A program made the position numbers and the translations under genes. The notes beneath the pieces were generated by a model. The model was not told where the DNA came from and ran no database searches. It was given only the letters and a program-made list of their open reading frames with translations. From Alistipes senegalensis (GTDB taxonomy: Bacteria; Bacteroidota; Bacteroidia; Bacteroidales; Rikenellaceae): DNA of 64,000 bases. Position 1 is the first letter of the stretch, and each line of letters starts with the position of its first letter. Shown here one piece after another: positions 55,608 through 62,548 of this stretch. The DNA lies in contig JAMPGH010000001.1 in NCBI GenBank assembly GCA_023664045.1, positions 1,353,079 through 1,417,078 of the forward strand, read 5' to 3'.

Positions 55608-55889
55608 TTAGCGGGCTCCTGCGTACTTGCAGCTTTGATACGGGACTATTGTAAGAAAAGTGTTGAATAAAAGCAGCTGCAGATGCTGGACGCAGCGCAC
55701 GGGGAGGCTAAAAGCACGTCCCGAGAAACCGTTCATGGGGTTCACGTTGTCCGAGTTGAAGTTCAAACCGCTCGGCGAAGCACTACCGGCAGCGGCGGAC
55801 GAAGAGGACCACGAGTAGCCGTTCGTGCCGACAGCATTCAGGGCTCCCGTCTGTCGGTCGCGGTAACCCGAAGCAGGCGCATGAAGCAA
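55608..55889 (-). pseudogene. FISUMP/lectin-like C-terminal cassette A (5'-truncated)
   Basis: An open frame of up to 93 codons with only a TTG near its 5' end. It encodes LHAPASGYRDRQTGALNAVG, then YSWSSSSAAAG and SLPVRCVQHLQ. This matches only the last ~65 residues of FISUMP/fimbrillin-type domains (typical ending YRxxxTGAL..VG..G.YWSSS...GFSVRCV). The upstream part of the gene, signal peptide and start are missing. It sits inside element A with 38-nt and 34-nt flanks identical to those of cassette B. Whether it is expressed is not evident. Confidence 0.65.
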
Positions 55890-56322
55890 TCGCTGGAATG
55901 AATGACGGAAAGGGAACCTTTCTCAATTAATAGTTAATAATGAATAATTGTCAGAACCACAAAAAAGTTGCTTTTTGAAAAAACACGATCTCGCAACTTA
56001 ATTATTCATTATACATTATTCACTATTCATTAAAGTTGCTTTCCGGCAGACTGGGATATAAAACCCGCCTGAGGATAAGGGGACAGATGAGGCCGGATAG
56101 AAATAGCAGGCTCCATCTCCCCTAAAACCCGCTTCTTAAGCGGGGGTTCGATAGAAAAAACCGGCTCTATCTCCTCCTAAACCCCGCTCTTAGCGGAGCC
56201 CATAAATCCCCGTTCTTAGCGGGGCGGGGGATTGCTGAATCTGCGGCCGCGCTGACGGAAGCCCTGAAAGACATCCCGCCACTCCGGGCCGAAGCTGCTT
56301 TTATCAAGGTGAAAGTTGAAAG
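55669..56322 (-). repeat. Composite repeat element A (inverted partner of element B)
   Basis: Read on the minus strand: leader 56322 to 56038, AT-rich spacer 56037 to 55905, 38-nt conserved flank 55904 to 55867, variable core 55866 to 55703, 34-nt conserved flank 55702 to 55669. The leader contains short hairpins CCGCTCTTAGCGG (56184-56196), CCCCGTTCTTAGCGGGG (56208-56224) and CCCGCTTCTTAAGCGGG (56128-56144). The same order and nearly the same length occur at 61894-62548 on the other strand. It lies downstream of ruvA and in the same orientation. No transposase is present. Confidence 0.8.
55926..56035. repeat. AT-rich inverted repeat inside element A
   Basis: ATAATGAATAATT near 55942 is matched by AATTATTCATTAT near 55999. 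Between them are AGTTGC and GCAACT in inverted order. This spacer has no counterpart of the same sequence in element B, which carries a different AT-rich inverted pair. Confidence 0.6.
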
Positions 56323-56379
56323 GCGAAACATGAAACGGGAAGTTCTTTCCCCTGCTGAAAGGCGAATTGCAAAACGCCA

Positions 56380-56455
56380 TAAAAAATAAATCGGGAAATA
56401 TCTTTCCCCGCATGTCGCGCATTCCGGCAAGGCCCGACGATGCCCGGAATGCGGC
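56380..56455 (-). terminator. Terminator region of ruvA
   Basis: On the minus strand a first stem GCATTCCGG/CCGGAATGC lies right after the ruvA stop. It is followed by GGGGAAA-GATA-TTTCCC and then ATTTATTTTTTAT, a probable intrinsic terminator. Confidence 0.6.
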
Positions 56456-56456
56456 C

Positions 56457-57035
56457 TTACAGCTCTTTCAACGCCATGCGTACCAGCTCCTCGGTCGAGG
56501 CGTCGGGTGTTGCGCGGAGTACGGAGCGAAGCGCCTTTTCGGCTGCCGATTTGTTGAACCCCAGCATTGCGAGAGCCGCCAGCGCTTCGTCGCTCCGCTC
56601 GTCGTTCGGGGCGGCGCCTGCGGCTCCGGTTTCCAGTCCTGTGAGCTTGCCGCTCAGCTCGACGATGATTTTCTGGGCTGTTTTGAGCCCCAGTCCCTTC
56701 ACGTTCTTCAGCAGCACGGCATTGCCCGACGAGATGATGTTCTGCAGCTCGGACGGCGAGTAGGTCGAAAGGATCGTGCGGGCCGTGTTGCCGCCCACGC
56801 CCGAGACGCCGAGCAGCAGCCGGAACAGCTCGCGCTCGGCTTTCGTGGCGAATCCGTAGAGCAGCTGCGCATCTTCGCGCACGACGTAGTGTACGAAGAG
56901 CTTCGTGCGTTCGGCATGTTCGATCGCCGAATAGGTTTCGAGCGATATGTTGAGATAGTAGCCCACGCCCGCCGCGTCGATCACGGCATAGGTCGGACCC
57001 AGTTCGGCCACGGGGCCGCTGATGTATTCGTACAT
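56457..57035 (-). CDS. ruvA: Holliday junction branch migration complex subunit RuvA
   Basis: A 192-residue protein with an N-terminal OB-fold (MYEYISGPVAELGPTYAVID), tandem helix-hairpin-helix motifs (FRLLLGVSGVGGNTARTILS; LLKNVKGLGLKTAQKIIVEL) and a C-terminal UBA-like domain (DEALAALAMLGFNKSAAEKA) that contacts RuvB. It binds four-way junctions in recombination repair. ruvB is not adjacent. A -7 box at 57062-57070 drives it divergently from the OmpH-like gene. Confidence 0.95.
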   Translation of the reverse strand: MYEYISGPVAELGPTYAVIDAAGVGYYLNISLETYSAIEHAERTKLFVHYVVREDAQLLYGFATKAERELFRLLLGVSGVGGNTARTILSTYSPSELQNIISSGNAVLLKNVKGLGLKTAQKIIVELSGKLTGLETGAAGAAPNDERSDEALAALAMLGFNKSAAEKALRSVLRATPDASTEELVRMALKEL

Positions 57036-57061
57036 GTCGTTTAAAAATTACGGGGTGCAGG

Positions 57062-57070
57062 GCAAAAATA
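57062..57070 (-). promoter_or_regulatory. Predicted promoter -7 box for ruvA
   Basis: The minus strand reads TATTTTTGC, a full consensus match 27 nt before the ruvA start. Confidence 0.55.
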
Positions 57071-57082
57071 AAGATTTTTTCT

Positions 57083-57091
57083 TATCTTTGC
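57083..57091 (+). promoter_or_regulatory. Predicted promoter -7 box for the OmpH-like gene
   Basis: Reads TATCTTTGC, a full consensus match, divergent from the ruvA promoter. Confidence 0.6.
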
Positions 57092-57132
57092 ATTTCGAGC
57101 AGAAAATAATTCATCAAACAGCAAAACAGGAT

Positions 57133-57723
57133 ATGAAAAAAATGCTTTTTACGGCATGGATCGTCGCTGCGGCGATGACGGCCTGCGGCCCCAAGAGTTC
57201 GGAGAATCCCGTTGCGGCGGAAGGTGCCGTGCGCGAGATCGGGGTGAGCGACATCGCTTACATTCAGGTCGAAGCCGTGCTGGCGGAGAGCGACCTCTAT
57301 AAGAACGAGGGTGCGGCGCTGCAGGAGAAGACCCAGAAGGCGCAGAACAGCTGGGCGCAGCGCGAGAAGAACCTGCAGGCCGAGGCCGCCAAGCTGCAGG
57401 AGAAGTACCAGAAAGGTCTGATTACCACCAACGATGCACAGGCCCAGCAGGAGAGCATCCAGCGTCGTGTGGCCTCGTACCAGAGTTCGGCGCAGAAGGA
57501 GGCCCAGACCCTCGAGGAGGAGAACTACGTCTTCACCAACCGGGCGCAGGATCTGTTGCAGCGTGCCGTGGAGGAGATCAACGCCGACCGCAAATACAAG
57601 CTCATCATCAACGCTTCGGCTTTGATCGACGCCGATACGACCCTCAACATCACGCCTGCCGTGCTGGCGAAGGTCAACGAACTCTACGCTGCCGATCAGG
57701 CAGAAAAGTCCTCCCGCAAATAA
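57133..57723 (+). CDS. OmpH/Skp-like periplasmic lipoprotein
   Basis: A 196-residue protein with a signal peptide and a probable lipobox (VAAAMTACGP). It starts with the strand DIAYIQVEAVLAESDLYK seen in OmpH/Skp chaperones. A long coiled coil follows (QEKTQKAQNSWAQREKNLQA ... QESIQRRVASYQSSAQKEAQ), then a closing strand and helix (YKLIINASALIDADTTLNIT, PAVLAKVNELY). Skp-type proteins hold unfolded outer-membrane proteins in the periplasm. The lipid anchor is a variant common in Bacteroidetes. Confidence 0.85.
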   Translation: MKKMLFTAWIVAAAMTACGPKSSENPVAAEGAVREIGVSDIAYIQVEAVLAESDLYKNEGAALQEKTQKAQNSWAQREKNLQAEAAKLQEKYQKGLITTNDAQAQQESIQRRVASYQSSAQKEAQTLEEENYVFTNRAQDLLQRAVEEINADRKYKLIINASALIDADTTLNITPAVLAKVNELYAADQAEKSSRK

Positions 57724-57806
57724 CCGGAGGCGGCGACCGGGGGGGGCGAGGAAGCTGGGCGCGTGTTGCCGCCACTCCTGCGATTCCGCCGAGTAAGACC
57801 GATGTG

Positions 57807-57837
57807 AAAAACCGATGATTCGTTCATCGGTTTTTTT
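57807..57837 (+). terminator. Intrinsic terminator of the OmpH-like gene
   Basis: Stem AAACCGATGA/TCATCGGTTT with a short TTCGT loop and a T7 tail. Confidence 0.85.
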
Positions 57838-57872
57838 CTTTGCATTCTCTTGTATGCCCGAAAATCCGCTGC

Positions 57873-58020
57873 TTTTTCGTCCGCTTTGCGTTCCCGATCT
57901 CGAAAACGGCTCTCTCGTCCGCAGGCCGCTTTGAAATCCCGCCGTCTTTTTCGCCCGCTTTGCGTTCCCGGTCTCGAAAACGGCTCTCTCGTCCGCAAGC
58001 CGTTTTGAAATCCCTGCCTG
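57873..58020 (+). repeat. Two tandem 74-bp direct repeats upstream of cdaA
   Basis: Copy 1 is 57873-57946 and copy 2 is 57947-58020. Each contains CCGCTTTGCGTTCCC, TCTCGAAAACGGCTCTCTCG and TTTTGAAATCCC-like parts. They differ at about eight positions. No coding frame or known protein site was recognised. Confidence 0.8.
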
Positions 58021-58069
58021 CGTCGGGCGAATTATGTGCGCCGGATTTTCATTTGTGGATCGTAAATCT

Positions 58070-58078
58070 TATCTTTGC
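58070..58078 (+). promoter_or_regulatory. Predicted promoter -7 box for cdaA
   Basis: Reads TATCTTTGC, with TTTG ~18-20 nt upstream at the -33 position. It lies 21 nt before the ATG. Confidence 0.6.
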
Positions 58079-58098
58079 AAAGAATAACGACCGCATTT

Positions 58099-58899
58099 AT
58101 GGGTTTCATACCGTTCACTTTCGTAGATTTCATCGACATTCTGTTGGTCGCCCTGAGCATGTACTGGATCTATCGCATGACCAAAGGCACCAACGCTCCC
58201 TATATCCTTTCGGGCATCATCGCCATCTATCTGCTGTGGGTCGTGGTCCGGGCCCTCAACATGGAGTTGCTCTCCACCATCCTCGGGCGCTTGATTTCGG
58301 TGGGTGTCATCGCACTGATTATCGTCTTCCAGCCCGAGTTGCGCCACTTCCTCCAGATGATCGGCATGCGGCAGAAGCAGTTCAAGTTCATCACGCGGTT
58401 CTTCTCCACGTTCGAGGAGAAGGCGCAGACCGACGTCGAGCCCATCGTCGCGGCCTGCACGGCGATGGCCGCTGCGAAAACCGGTGCGCTGATCGTCGTC
58501 GCGCTGCGCAGCGACCTCACGCTCATCGCCGAGGGAGGCATCGCCGTCGATGCCAAAGTCTCCGCCGATCTGTTGCAGAACATCTTCTTCAAGAACGCTC
58601 CTCTGCACGACGGTGCCGTGCTGATCCAGAACGACCGCATCATCGCCGCCAAGTGCATCCTGCCCGTTACGCAGAGCGACGTTCCCAAGTCTTACGGTAC
58701 GCGCCATCGTGCCGCCATCGGTCTGAGCGAGATCTCCGACGCCATCATTCTGGTCGTCTCCGAGGAGACCGGCGGTATCTCCGTGGCGCAGGGCGGCGAG
58801 CTGCACCGCGATCTCGATACGCTCCGCCTGCAGCAGACCTTGCGGCGCTACCTTGCGCCGGCTCCGCGCCGGCGTTCCAAAAAAGAGGTCGCCGAGTAA
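58099..58899 (+). CDS. cdaA: Diadenylate cyclase CdaA
   Basis: A 266-residue inner-membrane enzyme making c-di-AMP from two ATP. Three N-terminal helices (FVDFIDILLVALSMYWIY; YILSGIIAIYLLWVVVRA; LISVGVIALIIVFQPE) precede the DAC domain (about 105-255), which has DGA at 171-173 and RHR at 202-204. ATG 58099 was chosen over an upstream TTG because of the MGFIPF start and spacing to the promoter. c-di-AMP controls K+ balance and envelope stress in many bacteria. The usual CdaR partner is not adjacent, as often in Bacteroidetes. Confidence 0.95.
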   Translation: MGFIPFTFVDFIDILLVALSMYWIYRMTKGTNAPYILSGIIAIYLLWVVVRALNMELLSTILGRLISVGVIALIIVFQPELRHFLQMIGMRQKQFKFITRFFSTFEEKAQTDVEPIVAACTAMAAAKTGALIVVALRSDLTLIAEGGIAVDAKVSADLLQNIFFKNAPLHDGAVLIQNDRIIAAKCILPVTQSDVPKSYGTRHRAAIGLSEISDAIILVVSEETGGISVAQGGELHRDLDTLRLQQTLRRYLAPAPRRRSKKEVAE

Positions 58900-58966
58900 G
58901 TTCCGGTCCGGACGACGTTTTTCTTTATTTTTCGCGTCGGTTGCGGATTTGTCGGATTGTTTTTTG

Positions 58967-58975
58967 TAAATTTGC
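58967..58975 (+). promoter_or_regulatory. Predicted promoter -7 box for the lipoprotein pair
   Basis: Reads TAAATTTGC with TTTG at 58948-58951, a full match to the Bacteroidetes promoter. Confidence 0.6.
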
Positions 58976-58989
58976 ACGATTCTTAGCCG

Positions 58990-59634
58990 ATGAAAAAGTT
59001 TTTCCTGTTTCTGTTGTCGCCTGCGCTGCTCCTCGCTGCGGGTTGTTCCGAGGAGGAGGATGTGCTGGGCAAGCAGAAAACCGGCATGGTCTCCTTTCTG
59101 GAGCGGACCCACAATCCGCGGCTCGTTCCCGAGGAGGAGTACGAGGAGGGTAGCCGCTCGGCATTCTATACGACGCTGGGCGACGCCGTTTACCGTTATA
59201 TCGACATCGAGGATTATTTCGACCCCTACCGCGAAAACTGGCCTGAGGTTACCGATACCTCGTGGGTTACCCTGACTTTCACGGCCTACGCCTTCAACAA
59301 CGCCGCCATCGTCGGCCTGCCCGACGGAGGATTGACCGAGAGCAATATTTCGCGGGTTACGATGCCTTTCTACTCCAACGACCCCGCCTTCGAGCTCTAT
59401 TTCCACCTTGCAGGGCTTACGTCCGGGGCCTGGAATTTCGAGCCGCTGACCGTCGACATGCGCAGCCCCGGCATAATAAACGGATTGCGCCTCGCGTTAT
59501 TGGGTTGTCGCGAGGGCGATCGCGTCGAGGCCTACATGACCTACAACATGGCCTACGGGGATAAGAACTACATGTATTTTTTGCCGAAGGAGACCCCCGT
59601 CGCCATCTTCTTCAGCGTGGATAAGGTAGAATAA
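58990..59634 (+). CDS. FKBP-like (DUF4827-type) lipoprotein
   Basis: A 214-residue lipoprotein with lipobox LLLAAGCS. The C-terminal half has an FKBP-like pattern: INGLRLALLGCREGDRVEAY, MTYNMAYGDK and ETPVAIFFSVDKVE. These recall the GxxxAL..M..G......P..LAYG and final strand of FKBP peptidyl-prolyl isomerases. Aromatic active-site residues are not clearly kept, so it may be a binding rather than catalytic fold. It lies 11 nt before a second, larger lipoprotein of the same general type. Confidence 0.65.
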   Translation: MKKFFLFLLSPALLLAAGCSEEEDVLGKQKTGMVSFLERTHNPRLVPEEEYEEGSRSAFYTTLGDAVYRYIDIEDYFDPYRENWPEVTDTSWVTLTFTAYAFNNAAIVGLPDGGLTESNISRVTMPFYSNDPAFELYFHLAGLTSGAWNFEPLTVDMRSPGIINGLRLALLGCREGDRVEAYMTYNMAYGDKNYMYFLPKETPVAIFFSVDKVE

Positions 59635-59645
59635 TATTTTCGAAT

Positions 59646-61226
59646 ATGATACGTCATTTCCGTTCCGCCGTTTTCGCCGTCGTCCTGCTGGCGGTTTCGT
59701 GCGCCGAGGAGCAGACCGAGTCCTACGGCAAGTTCGAGGACCTGTCGCTCGAAGCATGGATCTCTCAGAACCGGCCCGAGTTGCTGGACAATTATCAGGA
59801 CTTCGGCGAGGCAGGTTATTATATCGACGTGCTCGACGCCGGCGATCCGGATGCCGCACCCGTCAGCGATACGGTCTGCTGGGTGAAGTTCGACTTTTCG
59901 GGCCGCGATCTGGCGTCGAATATCGTCCTGACCCGCCGGGCTGCGGAGGCGCGGCTCGCCGGAACGTTCACCAACAAAACCCATTACGTGCCTTTCTACC
60001 GTTATTGCGGCACTTCGAATACCGGTTTGCTGGAGGGTACCTACCTCGCCATGCGCGAGGTGCAGACCCTCGGCGAAAGTTATTTCGAGAAGTATAAGGA
60101 CGATTCCGACCGGCGGCTCCGTTCGCGCGAAGTGCGGTTGCGCGAGGGTTCCCGGGTCGTGTTGTATTGTCCGTCGCGCATCGTCGGCGAGGTCTCGGGC
60201 GACGGCGGTTACGAGGGGCAGTATTCGTTGTCTTCGGGCAAGCCGATCCGCATCGAGCTGGAGATCCTCGACACGATCAAGAATCCCCTCGCGGCCGAGG
60301 GCGGGGCGGTCGACGCCTTCTGTACGGGCAACGGCGGACTGCTGCGTTACACTTCCGAGGAGGAACCTGCGGAGGGCGCCGTGCCCATGCCGACAGATCC
60401 TTCGGACCCCAACCACCCGTATCGCACCGACAAGCGGTGGGTGAGCGTCAGCGACTCCATTCCGCAGCTCTACGCCGACTTCAACTACCGGCCCGGCGAT
60501 CCGCTCGTTTTCGCCGATCCCTATGTCGCCAAGATCGAGCCCTACGTTTCCGAGGCTTCGATGGCCGACATCGACCGCCGCATCGACGAGGCGCTCCGCA
60601 AGCGGTTCCTCGATGACGACGACGCGAACTACCCCGGGGCCGAACAGCTTGCCGCCGATTCGGTCGACATGGAGAAGAAGACCAAGATCTGGTATATCAC
60701 GCGTTTTCTCGACGGCTTCGTCATCGATACCAACATCGACGAGGTGAAGGAGATCGTCTTCGGCGAGGTCAAGACCCCCGGCACGGCCTACGATGTCTCG
60801 CAGACCGGCAACAGCCCCATTGCGGCCTGGCACTACGCGCTGCCCAAACTCAAGTATGGGCAGTGGGCAGCTCTCGCTACCGTTTCGACCCATGCTTACG
60901 GCGCGCAGGGCAGGCAGGGCACGACGACTACGAGCACTTCCTCCTCGTCGAACGGCTATACCCAAAGCTACTACGACTACCTCAATTACATGAGCTACGC
61001 CAACAGCTACTACGGCAGCGGTTACGGCGGTTACTATCCGGGCTATTACGGCGGTTATTACGGCGGCATGTACAACCCCTATTACGGTTACGGATACAAT
61101 TACGACTATGGCTACGGGGGCGACACCTCCGACACCGAGACGACCACCACCACGTCGTCCACCGATACCGAGATCCTGCCCTTCACGCCGCTGCTCTTCC
61201 AGATCTACATCGAGCCGGCGGAGTAG
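59646..61226 (+). CDS. Large FKBP-like lipoprotein with Gly/Tyr-rich tract
   Basis: A 526-residue lipoprotein (lipobox VLLAVSC). Two segments look FKBP-like: residues ~135-225, ending KPIRIELEILDTI, and ~365-526, with ALPKLKYGQWAALATVSTHA then AYGAQG and a final strand LPFTPLLFQIYIEPAE. The second is interrupted at about residues 425-510 by Ser/Thr and a tract very rich in Gly and Tyr (repeats such as GGYYPGYYGGYYGGMYNPYY). The tract lies where FKBPs have a loop before the last strand. Function unknown. Tandem with the preceding gene and followed by a terminator. Confidence 0.65.
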   Translation: MIRHFRSAVFAVVLLAVSCAEEQTESYGKFEDLSLEAWISQNRPELLDNYQDFGEAGYYIDVLDAGDPDAAPVSDTVCWVKFDFSGRDLASNIVLTRRAAEARLAGTFTNKTHYVPFYRYCGTSNTGLLEGTYLAMREVQTLGESYFEKYKDDSDRRLRSREVRLREGSRVVLYCPSRIVGEVSGDGGYEGQYSLSSGKPIRIELEILDTIKNPLAAEGGAVDAFCTGNGGLLRYTSEEEPAEGAVPMPTDPSDPNHPYRTDKRWVSVSDSIPQLYADFNYRPGDPLVFADPYVAKIEPYVSEASMADIDRRIDEALRKRFLDDDDANYPGAEQLAADSVDMEKKTKIWYITRFLDGFVIDTNIDEVKEIVFGEVKTPGTAYDVSQTGNSPIAAWHYALPKLKYGQWAALATVSTHAYGAQGRQGTTTTSTSSSSNGYTQSYYDYLNYMSYANSYYGSGYGGYYPGYYGGYYGGMYNPYYGYGYNYDYGYGGDTSDTETTTTTSSTDTEILPFTPLLFQIYIEPAE

Positions 61227-61270
61227 ACTCCGCAGGACGGCCGCCGGTCGCCGCGTTTTCGCCTCTTATG

Positions 61271-61300
61271 CTCCGTTCCCGCGTCGGGAGCGGAGTTTTT
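61271..61300 (+). terminator. Intrinsic terminator of the lipoprotein pair
   Basis: Stem CTCCGTTCCCG/CGGGAGCGGAG with a short loop and T5, 44 nt after the stop. Confidence 0.85.
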
Positions 61301-61333
61301 CGTACTTTTTTCGGGATATATTTGGCGGTTCCG

Positions 61334-61342
61334 TATTTTTGT
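61334..61342 (+). promoter_or_regulatory. Predicted promoter -7 box for the 80-residue HTH gene
   Basis: Reads TATTTTTGT, with TTTGG ~14 nt upstream and the ATG 44 nt downstream. Confidence 0.5.
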
Positions 61343-61385
61343 CGTAAATTAGTTGTGCGGAATTTCAATTTAAATATCGACGAAT

Positions 61386-61628
61386 ATGATTATTACCTTT
61401 AACGAATTGCGCCGCATCAAGGACAAGTTGCCCAGCGGCAGTTCGCAGCGCATTGCGGATGAATTGGGAATCGACGTGGAGACCGTCCGCAACTACTTCG
61501 GCGGCAAACACGAATCCAAAGAGTGTGTGGGCGTGCATTTCGAACCCGGTCCCGACGGCGGCGTGGTAACGCTCGACGATACGACGATTCTCGATGTCGC
61601 CATGCGCATCCTCGGCGAGCAGAAATAA
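61386..61628 (+). CDS. Small HTH DNA-binding protein
   Basis: An 80-residue protein. Its N-terminal half is a helix-turn-helix (ITFNELRRIKDKLPSGSSQR, IADELGIDVETVRNYFGGKH). The C-terminal part (GVHFEPGPDGGVVTLDDTTI, LDVAMRILGEQK) is typical of a short DNA-binding family found across Bacteroidetes. Targets are unknown. It has its own promoter and a strong terminator. Confidence 0.75.
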   Translation: MIITFNELRRIKDKLPSGSSQRIADELGIDVETVRNYFGGKHESKECVGVHFEPGPDGGVVTLDDTTILDVAMRILGEQK

Positions 61629-61727
61629 GGGGCCGAGAGCGGGGAACGAAACGAGGGGAGCGGGAGAGGTGCTGGAACGAGGCCCGAACTCGGAGCTCTG
61701 AATCGACGACGTTCCGTTTGTAATGCA
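61629..61727 (+). other. Purine-rich tract after the HTH gene
   Basis: The first ~60 nt after the stop are G/A-rich (GGGGAACGAAACGAGGGGAG and similar), like the tracts after secG and prs. Confidence 0.45.
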
Positions 61728-61762
61728 GCGCAGTCCGGAAAATTCCGGGCTGCGCTTTTTTT
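61728..61762 (+). terminator. Intrinsic terminator of the HTH gene
   Basis: Twelve-bp stem GCGCAGTCCGGA/TCCGGGCTGCGC (one G-U pair) with loop AAAT and T7. Confidence 0.9.
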
Positions 61763-61893
61763 CGGATGAAAAGTTTTTCGAGAATCTTCATACTTGGCGG
61801 ATGCGCAGGATAGGCGTTTCCCGATCTGCTTTCTTGCAGTCTCTTATCTTTAGACTTTCTTTAAATAAAGGTAGCTTCATTTTACCTTTTACT

Positions 61894-62548
61894 GTTCAAC
61901 TTTTACCTTGATAAAAGCAGCTTCGGCCCGGAGTGGCGGGATGTCTTTCATGGCTCCCGTCAGCGCGGCCGCAGATTCAGCAATCCCCCGCCCCGCCCGC
62001 TAAGAGCCGGGATTTATGGGCCCCGCTAAGAGCGGAGTTTTAGGAGGAGATAGAGCCTGCTATTTCTATCCGGCCTCATCTGTCCCTGCCTGCTTAAGAA
62101 GCGGGTTTTAGGGGGGGGGAGATAGGGCCGATTAGCTCTGTTCGTCCTTATCTCTTTCTGCACCGTTGGGCGGGTTTTATATTCCAGTCTGCCGGAAAGT
62201 CTGCGATAATTAAGAGTTATAAGTGATAATTTTCGGGGCCGCCCGATATTTCGTGCTCCTCGAATAATTCTTAATTTTTCATTTTTCATTCTTAATTGCA
62301 CTGCTCCCTTTCCGGCATTCATTCCAGCGATTGCTTCATGCGCCTGCTTCGGGCCGCCGCGACGGCACGACGGGAATCCTGTCGAACGTCGGTACGGAAG
62401 GACGTTATTGGTCGTCCGCGCCCCATGCGGCAGACAATACCAATGCAGGCAACATGGGATTCGGCTCCGGATTCGTGTACCCGTGGGGTGTCATAAATCG
62501 ATCTTTCGGCTTCTCCGTGCGCTGCGTCCAGCATCTGCAGCTGCTTTT
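61894..62548 (+). repeat. Composite repeat element B (inverted partner of element A)
   Basis: Order on the plus strand: leader 61894-62199, AT-rich spacer 62200-62315, 38-nt flank 62316-62353, variable core 62354-62514, 34-nt flank 62515-62548. The leader shares long near-identical blocks with element A (ACCTTGATAAAAGCAGCTTC; GGCCCGGAGTGGCGGGATGT; CAGTCTGCCGGAAAG). Both also keep a 33-codon open stretch encoding DKSSFGPEWRDVF and RQRGRRFSNPPPR. The three residue differences there are all replacements, which gives no support for a selected protein. It lies between an HTH gene and dnaK. Confidence 0.8.
62266..62298. repeat. AT-rich dispersed repeat inside element B
   Basis: TTCTTAATTTTTCATTTTTC followed by ATTCTTAATT. 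Same family as the copies at 25299, 35003 and 46672. GATAATTAAGAG near 62202 forms an inverted counterpart. Confidence 0.55.

Follow-up and report, generated by a model that had tools for sequence, protein, structure and literature searches.

What are the two ~635-nt elements, inverted relative to each other, that lie in the 64,000-nt stretch of the Alistipes senegalensis genome analyzed here (positions 1,353,079 to 1,417,078 of contig JAMPGH010000001.1; hereafter, the window), and what might they be for? The elements, denoted A and B, span 55669-56302 on the minus strand and 61913-62548 on the plus strand, respectively, with refined bounds drawn from the 5' arm to the 3' arm. Two inverted composite elements had been called at these places by the original prediction, and both our reading of the sequence and the inverted-repeat arms shared by A and B (117 nt at 91%, 119 nt at 76%, 84 nt at 74%, 66 nt at 82%, 53 nt at 89%, 50 nt at 88%, and shorter ones) bear this out, with the 38-nt and 34-nt identical flanks present as described and ~33 nt of further similar sequence upstream of both elements. 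Our answer, drawn from sequence comparisons, is that A and B are very probably template-RNA genes of a diversity-generating retroelement (DGR), each complete in itself, that are dispersed along the chromosome and act in trans.

The elements are neither a known transposon nor an inverting pair; they are members of a large family. When the whole element was searched against the window's own genome (G000; 1.97 Mb in five contigs, 86% complete), 104 matching pieces were obtained, and the 15-mer of the 3' flank, GTGCGCTGCGTCCAG, occurs exactly 49 times (its reversed control, 0 times); that is, the elements are not unique to these two places and their similarity is not one of scattered words. The 15-mer is followed by CATCT in 48 of the 49 occurrences and by AATAAATAG in a single one (C1:490548, minus strand), which lies near an Avd-like gene in a frame that reads VRCVQNK and then stops. 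Eleven of the 48 template-type copies form one tandem array and 37 are found elsewhere. A phage origin of the units was considered and found no support, as the exact 20-mer was absent from viral contigs in a search that covered exact copies only. Among 121 genomes of the genus, eight carry the exact 15-mer, six of them with 17-49 copies.

The enzyme that such units would require is encoded far away. The one RVT_1 match in G000 (C1:482632-483360, minus strand) lies ~0.93 Mb from the window elements on the same contig; its open frame carries GRYVDD and IGNLTSQ, the latter of the form IGxxxSQ that we take to mark DGR reverse transcriptases (RTs), and it matches a retron model, a class considered in view of the paired RNA ends, only below that model's cut-off. 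RTs of the six other genomes searched are 52-88% identical to it. Read on the minus strand, this locus (L035) consists of the end of a coding variable region, an Avd-like gene, the 11 tandem units and the RT, an order that was checked in G000 and G115, while in G060 the RT adjoins the array; tandem arrays in the fetched loci of other genomes have 2 to 14 units. A coding gene carries the variable region at its 3' end, with a stop after it, and the homing site there differs from that of the template. The target gene is whole in G115 (773 aa, with DUF4906 and a C-terminal FISUMP-type region at E=0.0007, below cut-off), where it adjoins a fimbrillin-like (Mfa_like) gene; the target in G221 has 788 aa, and the target open frames of G007 and G085 exceed 760 codons. 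The coding copy of G000 has a 100-N gap upstream, and its last 13 codons plus VRCVQNK-stop are visible.

The evidence that carries our reading comes from relatives in which the variable region can be compared with the candidate donor units of the same genome. Seven genomes made up this comparison (G007, G060, G085, G115, G221, G226 and G012), the units compared being, for G085, the five array units in L115, for G221, which belongs to another genus (2 contigs, 98% complete), the two remote units with a recognizable core, and, for G226, 16 of 18 units. Outside it were G000, G100 and G106 (variable region truncated by a gap or by the end of the stretch), G009 (none in the fetched contig), G192, G252 and G264 (no coding variable region recognized) and the other carriers of the RT-7 RNA discussed below. 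The variable region of G007 differs from the scattered unit L142, on another contig, at 22/39 adenines and 0/143 other positions (p=4e-18; 22/38 and 0/145 with slightly different bounds), and that of G115 differs from the scattered unit L130, also on another contig, at 17/37 adenines and 4/145 other positions (p=2e-10). The four exceptions in G115 cluster near the 5' end, where the target has the 'HRET' motif of array units, making a mosaic with a second template likely. For G060 and G085, counted on ungapped alignments with the 5' bound placed where non-A mismatches become dense, the values were 6/34 adenines and 0/150 other positions against the scattered unit L170 on another contig (p=3e-5) and 9/38 adenines and 0/144 other positions against the third of the five array units (p=3e-7; 9/37 and 0/146 with slightly different bounds), respectively. 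Finally, the variable region of G221 differs from L219, 259 kb off on the same contig, at 16/47 adenines and 0/138 other positions (p=3e-11). A donor was thus found in five of the seven genomes, four times scattered or remote and once in the array.

Several features of these pairs give the direction and route of the transfer. The changed sites of G007, G060, G085 and G221 are all A in the unit (one of 21 is reversed in G115), which makes the unit the template, and the identity between target and donor starts and stops at the template bounds. As a control, ordered pairs with ≤6 non-A mismatches numbered 1/342 in G007 and 1/462 in G115, each being the coding region with its scattered donor. Since the differences fall at adenines only, or nearly so, the transfer is best explained by the DGR and not by DNA shuffling. 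The four genomes with a scattered or remote donor, from two genera, are strong evidence that scattered units can act as templates, and, on the basis of shared anatomy, the two window units are likely such template units as well. The adenine changes in the G007 and G115 targets (L110:12965 and L108:10742) are mostly A to G (20/22 and 14/17, respectively), whereas A to T is commoner in those of G085 (5/9) and G060 (4/6).

The leaders and ends of the units are consistent with units that work as RNA. In the unit leaders at L035, Rfam searches gave nine matches to the RT-7 RNA (RF03028; E 2.9e-20 to 1.3e-7), all below the gathering score (best G000 array leader, 90 bits vs. 116.8). The RT-7 model ends at about the template start, and the GCAATCCGC and GCGATTGC blocks are brought together by its closing helix. 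Rfam lists this RNA, which was reportedly described by Weinberg et al. in 2017, as a small RNA; our units share its leader fold, and here it appears as the 5' part of DGR template units. RT-7 exceeds the gathering score in 4 of the 121 genus genomes (G076, G002, G106 and G100), and its carriers comprise 32 of 268 genomes and 8 of 22 genera of the family; copy numbers per genome are lower bounds, with ≤19 candidates scored per genus genome and ~9 in the family survey. RT-7 matches are also present on the donor units L142, L170, L130 and L219. The 16-kb stretch around the DGR of G221 holds the target, an Avd-like frame (recognized by eye) and the RT and has no RT-7 match within it, while three remote loci have one match each. 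Other than RT-7, the Rfam families in the searched stretches were a tRNA plus below-threshold matches.

Further, the 5' and 3' arms of one unit pair and change together (e.g., AAAAAGCGGCTCC/GGAGCCGCTTTTT, followed by AAAACGACTTC/GAAGTCGTTTT, AAAACAGTCCCC/GGGGACTGTTTT and AAGCGGTCTT/GAGACCGCTT). Among the 42 units assessed (the 49 copies minus five without a leader motif found and two whose nearest motif is that of the next unit), the mean score of own arm pairs was higher than in all 20000 permutations, and this was also the case for the 9 array units alone and for the 33 scattered units alone. A TAnnTTTG box, presumably the -7 element of Bacteroidetes promoters, occurs ≤32 nt before the 5' arm in 9/33 scattered units, 0/11 array units and 18/2424 background windows.

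The two window units show the same parts in the same order: from the 5' arm AAAAGCAGC, they continue through a GC-rich leader and an AT-rich spacer to the block CATTCATTCCAGCGATTGCTTCATGCGCCTGCTTCGGG, followed by a ~190-nt core and CCGTGCGCTGCGTCCAGCATCTGCAGCTGCTTTT; the bounds of their template repeats were inferred from the donor/target alignments in relatives. Unit A lies downstream of ruvA as one of the 48 template-type copies, and all its parts are on the minus strand: the 5' arm at 56294-56302, which belongs to the end pairing that co-varies across the 42 units; the leader at 56150-56288, with a weak RT-7 match (21.9 bits vs. the gathering score of 116.8); GATTGC at 55886-55891, the 3' side of an RT-7-type closing helix whose partner GCAATC is at 56230-56235; the template repeat at 55686-55877 (192 nt, 29 A, 7 AAY codons), reading PASGYRDRQTGALNAVG...VRCVQ; the template-type homing site at 55681-55700 (GTGCGCTGCGTCCAG, then CATCT); and the terminator-like 3' arm GCTGCTTTT at 55669-55677. 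Unit B lies between a helix-turn-helix (HTH) gene and dnaK, on the plus strand, with its 5' arm, likewise AAAAGCAGC, at 61913-61921, its leader at 61927-62067 (again a weak RT-7 match, 24.5 bits against the same gathering score), GATTGC at 62329-62334 with its partner GCAATC at 61980-61985, the template repeat at 62343-62531 (189 nt, 33 A, 5 AAY codons), reading PASGRRDGTTGILSNVG...VRCVQ, the template-type homing site at 62517-62536 (GTGCGCTGCGTCCAG, then CATCT), and the terminator-like 3' arm GCTGCTTTT plus a T run at 62540-62548. The cores translate as PASGYRDRQTGALNAVGTNGYSWSSSS...RAFSLPVRCVQ in A and PASGRRDGTTGILSNVGTEGRYWSSAP...RSFGFSVRCVQ in B, and both frames match the FISUMP and Lcl_C families weakly, below cut-off.

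It is important to note that several results weigh against this interpretation. The RT-7 matches of the window leaders are weak in statistical terms as well (E=0.011 and 0.058), the TAnnTTTG box is found in neither window unit, and the own 3' arm is the best partner in its row for only 5/42 units, because many arms are nearly identical. The Avd-like protein scores under both curated cut-offs (NF033474, E=1.4e-13, 51 bits, cut-off 80; bAvd, E=1.2e-8, 35.8 bits, cut-off 40). The donor evidence is from relatives, the variable region of G000 itself adjoining the 100-N gap; the visible 55 nt ending in the homing-site 15-mer of the coding copy are those of the scattered copy C1:342669, which is also beside a gap, an identity that is suggestive only. 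G226 gave no donor among the units compared (lowest value, 25 non-A mismatches; its variable region is truncated), and in G012, the variable region matches an array unit exactly, but the contig in question repeats the array, which renders the identity uninformative. Gaps at the repeats are a feature of most of the genomes compared, which are draft or metagenome assemblies. Finally, AAY codons are scarcer in the scattered units of G000 than in its array units; at the AAY columns of the array, A is found in 443/864 cases in scattered units vs. 191/264 in the array (p=9e-10), and silent-site drift is seen. Hence, many of the scattered units could be old or little used, and, as templates, they are less mutable on average.

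This last point is also the argument for viewing the units as dead remnants, that is, old coding variable regions or decayed templates that duplication has spread. We regard this alternative as highly unlikely, since the cores have stayed open: in 47 units (58 codons before the homing site plus the site; 342669 and the coding copy 490548 were excluded for N in the core), there are 0 in-frame stops in 2961 codons, compared with 103 and 42 when the two remaining forward frames are read. Two further points speak against remnants: the end pairs co-vary when the 33 scattered units are taken by themselves, and scattered donors were found in four genomes. Nor do the G000 units look like targets of one another: ≤6 non-A mismatches were found in 2/2162 ordered pairs, both being one identical pair, and hence there is no sign that the units diversify each other at adenines.

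A further alternative is that the units are a non-autonomous mobile element, or DNA cassettes that recombine and invert, as the original prediction had proposed. In favor of it, there are the 48 template-type copies in G000 and short complementary ends. These ends, considered with a view to insertion sequences and miniature inverted-repeat transposable elements (MITEs), nonetheless co-vary from unit to unit. Moreover, the G000 units C1:526141 (minus) and 997145 (plus) have an identical core (188/188 compared), with differing leader, tail and flanks, which indicates that cores can move between slots; the identical cores could reflect a recent core transfer or an assembly effect. Orientation is not fixed either: in the gap between the HTH gene and dnaK, G060 and G012 also have a unit, in the opposite orientation, and the units at slot C1:1259930 have opposite orientations in different species. 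In G115 and G007, a ~1.2-kb segment that G000 has between its units C1:363621 and 367081 runs the other way around with respect to its neighbor, the flank on the far side of the first unit, and a unit lies at the junction (L032:2072-6061, corresponding to G000 C1:363.6-367.6 kb; L136; L140). Units may, therefore, sit at rearrangement points, though not in the case of the window pair.

Despite these points, we consider mobile or recombining DNA very unlikely as the main explanation, although the units may be mobile in addition, for three reasons. DNA recombination does not produce differences that are confined, or nearly so, to adenines. Second, the slots are largely shared: when 24 scattered units of G115 and G007 were compared with the slots of G000, orientation free, 17/24 shared a slot on one side or on both (6 with both flanks and equal orientation, 2 with both flanks and opposite orientation, 9 with a single flank; the other 7 had no match), or 15/24 when equal orientation was required. 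Some slots are old, such as that of L130 and L142, whose flanks match the G000 unit C1:1192979, and in G009, a sister species, both window slots are occupied by units whose cores are markedly different. Third, the suggested inversion of the 5.6 kb between the elements was not supported: the order and orientation of secG-ruvA-ompH-cdaA-lipoproteins-HTH-dnaK is unchanged in G076, whose 15-kb stretch with the window gene order holds no homing site, and fits two G009 contigs. What survives of the cassette idea is its effect, that is, a set of untranslated-looking donors; the DNA shuffling does not survive, the transfer in relatives being adenine-specific. The last alternative, small independent lectin-like protein genes, draws on open frames of ≥58 codons with FISUMP-like residues before the homing site in 47/47 full cores and can practically be set aside, given that the two window frames score far below the family cut-offs, that the position of the leader motif CCAGCGATTGC with respect to the core can fall in any of the three frames (25, 17 and 5 units; 2/49 without motif), meaning that no single protein spans both leader and core, and that reading in the 48 template-type copies continues beyond the site at which the sole coding copy stops. 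A FISUMP search of G000 returned a single match (C1:27249) and no unit.

Hence, we favor dispersed template-RNA genes, and a possible course of events can be outlined. A unit would be transcribed, from its own promoter or by read-through; the 5' and 3' ends of its RNA would pair, placing the leader, as an RT-7-like fold, beside the template; the distant RT and Avd would copy the template into complementary DNA (cDNA), with errors at adenines; and the cDNA would replace the 3'-terminal variable region of one lipoprotein-like gene located close to fimbrillin-type genes. With a choice among dozens of pre-diverged templates before mutation, the whole binding face could be swapped as well as tuned. 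By inference, the window units may be in use and the set of units may constitute an archive with switching. The fuller version of this idea, to which we give roughly even chances, is that a chromosome-wide archive of separately transcribed, pre-diverged template-RNA genes serves one surface-protein gene in trans, with the RT picking one template, so that a single event both exchanges and hypermutates the whole binding face, and with a set of templates that renews itself by moving cores between slots. Such a two-layer system, if real, would join cassette-type antigenic variation with DGR mutagenesis. Where antigenic variation proceeds by gene conversion, one expressed site is likewise supplied from a store of diverged silent cassettes that are not expressed; here, in contrast, transfer leaves an adenine-mutation signature, which implies a passage through RNA and cDNA.

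How does this arrangement compare with known DGRs? It shares with the classical type (that of Bordetella phage BPP-1) the RT, Avd, the adenine-specific change from template to target, homing sites that are not the same in the two, and a C-terminal lectin-like variable region. In contrast to the classical type, G000 has 48 template-type units that bring their own leaders and terminator-like ends, and 37 of these units lie outside the RT locus. A template near the RT, which is usual and not strictly defining for a DGR, is found in G085 and not in G007, G060, G115 or G221. DGR searches usually seek the template near the RT; as the template can be hundreds of kilobases away, templates may be missed (e.g., in G221). 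One survey describes DGR cassettes of 2-5 kb (PMC3521204). In Thiohalocapsa PB-PSB1, the template at one DGR locus is thought to diversify targets at others (PMC10907252); that genome has several DGR loci with remote targets, whereas here one target end was found along with many remote templates. According to another survey, of 271 DGRs with multiple variable regions, 216 have one template and the others more, and one DGR has 6 unique templates and 91 template-variable region pairs with few A changes (PMC6642488). As in those systems, there is more than one template here; the difference is that the templates here are dispersed RNA units with related leaders and A-only donor/target pairs. No description of a DGR template library that is dispersed and acts in trans came up in the literature searched, the coverage of which is incomplete. 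A, B and the other units are best described as part of a DGR with dispersed RNA-gene templates. This would provide a likely role for the Rfam RT-7 RNA and a naturally occurring case in which dozens of co-varying copies may reveal the RNA parts that template use in trans requires.

Variations on these themes were observed in other genera. In G252 (L222-L225), most of the recognized units end in VRCVAR-stop, and template and target tails may be alike there, while G192 (L227) has about ten FISUMP-like units in 11 kb, on the same strand, before a DGR-type RT. Closer to G000, a slot shared by both flanks holds a unit that is opposite in G115 and G007 relative to G000 (L044:2430, L131:1324, L145:1296).

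The flip of 56323-61893 was assessed on the gene order of G076, G007, G009, G060, G012, G115, G002, G085 and G100 and was rejected. Where the order differs (e.g., G060, G012, G085, G100 and G002), the ruvA-ompH-cdaA block is turned or moved, even without a homing site in the stretch; the segment that changes orientation is therefore a different one from the interval that A and B enclose. Separately, this block is rearranged relative to its neighbors in several genomes of the genus (L200, L203, L205, L209, L156 and L157).

Finally, two other repeats deserve mention. A companion repeat, ~200-300 nt long and placed after a full unit, ends in the same GCTGCGTCCAGCATCTGC tail as the units and has no lectin frame (G000 C1:336940 and 366666 on the minus strand, 1260175 and 1539877 on the plus strand; L119:4866, plus strand). 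In the window itself, two 69-nt direct repeats (94%), 74 nt apart from start to start, lie between ompH and cdaA at 57872-58014.

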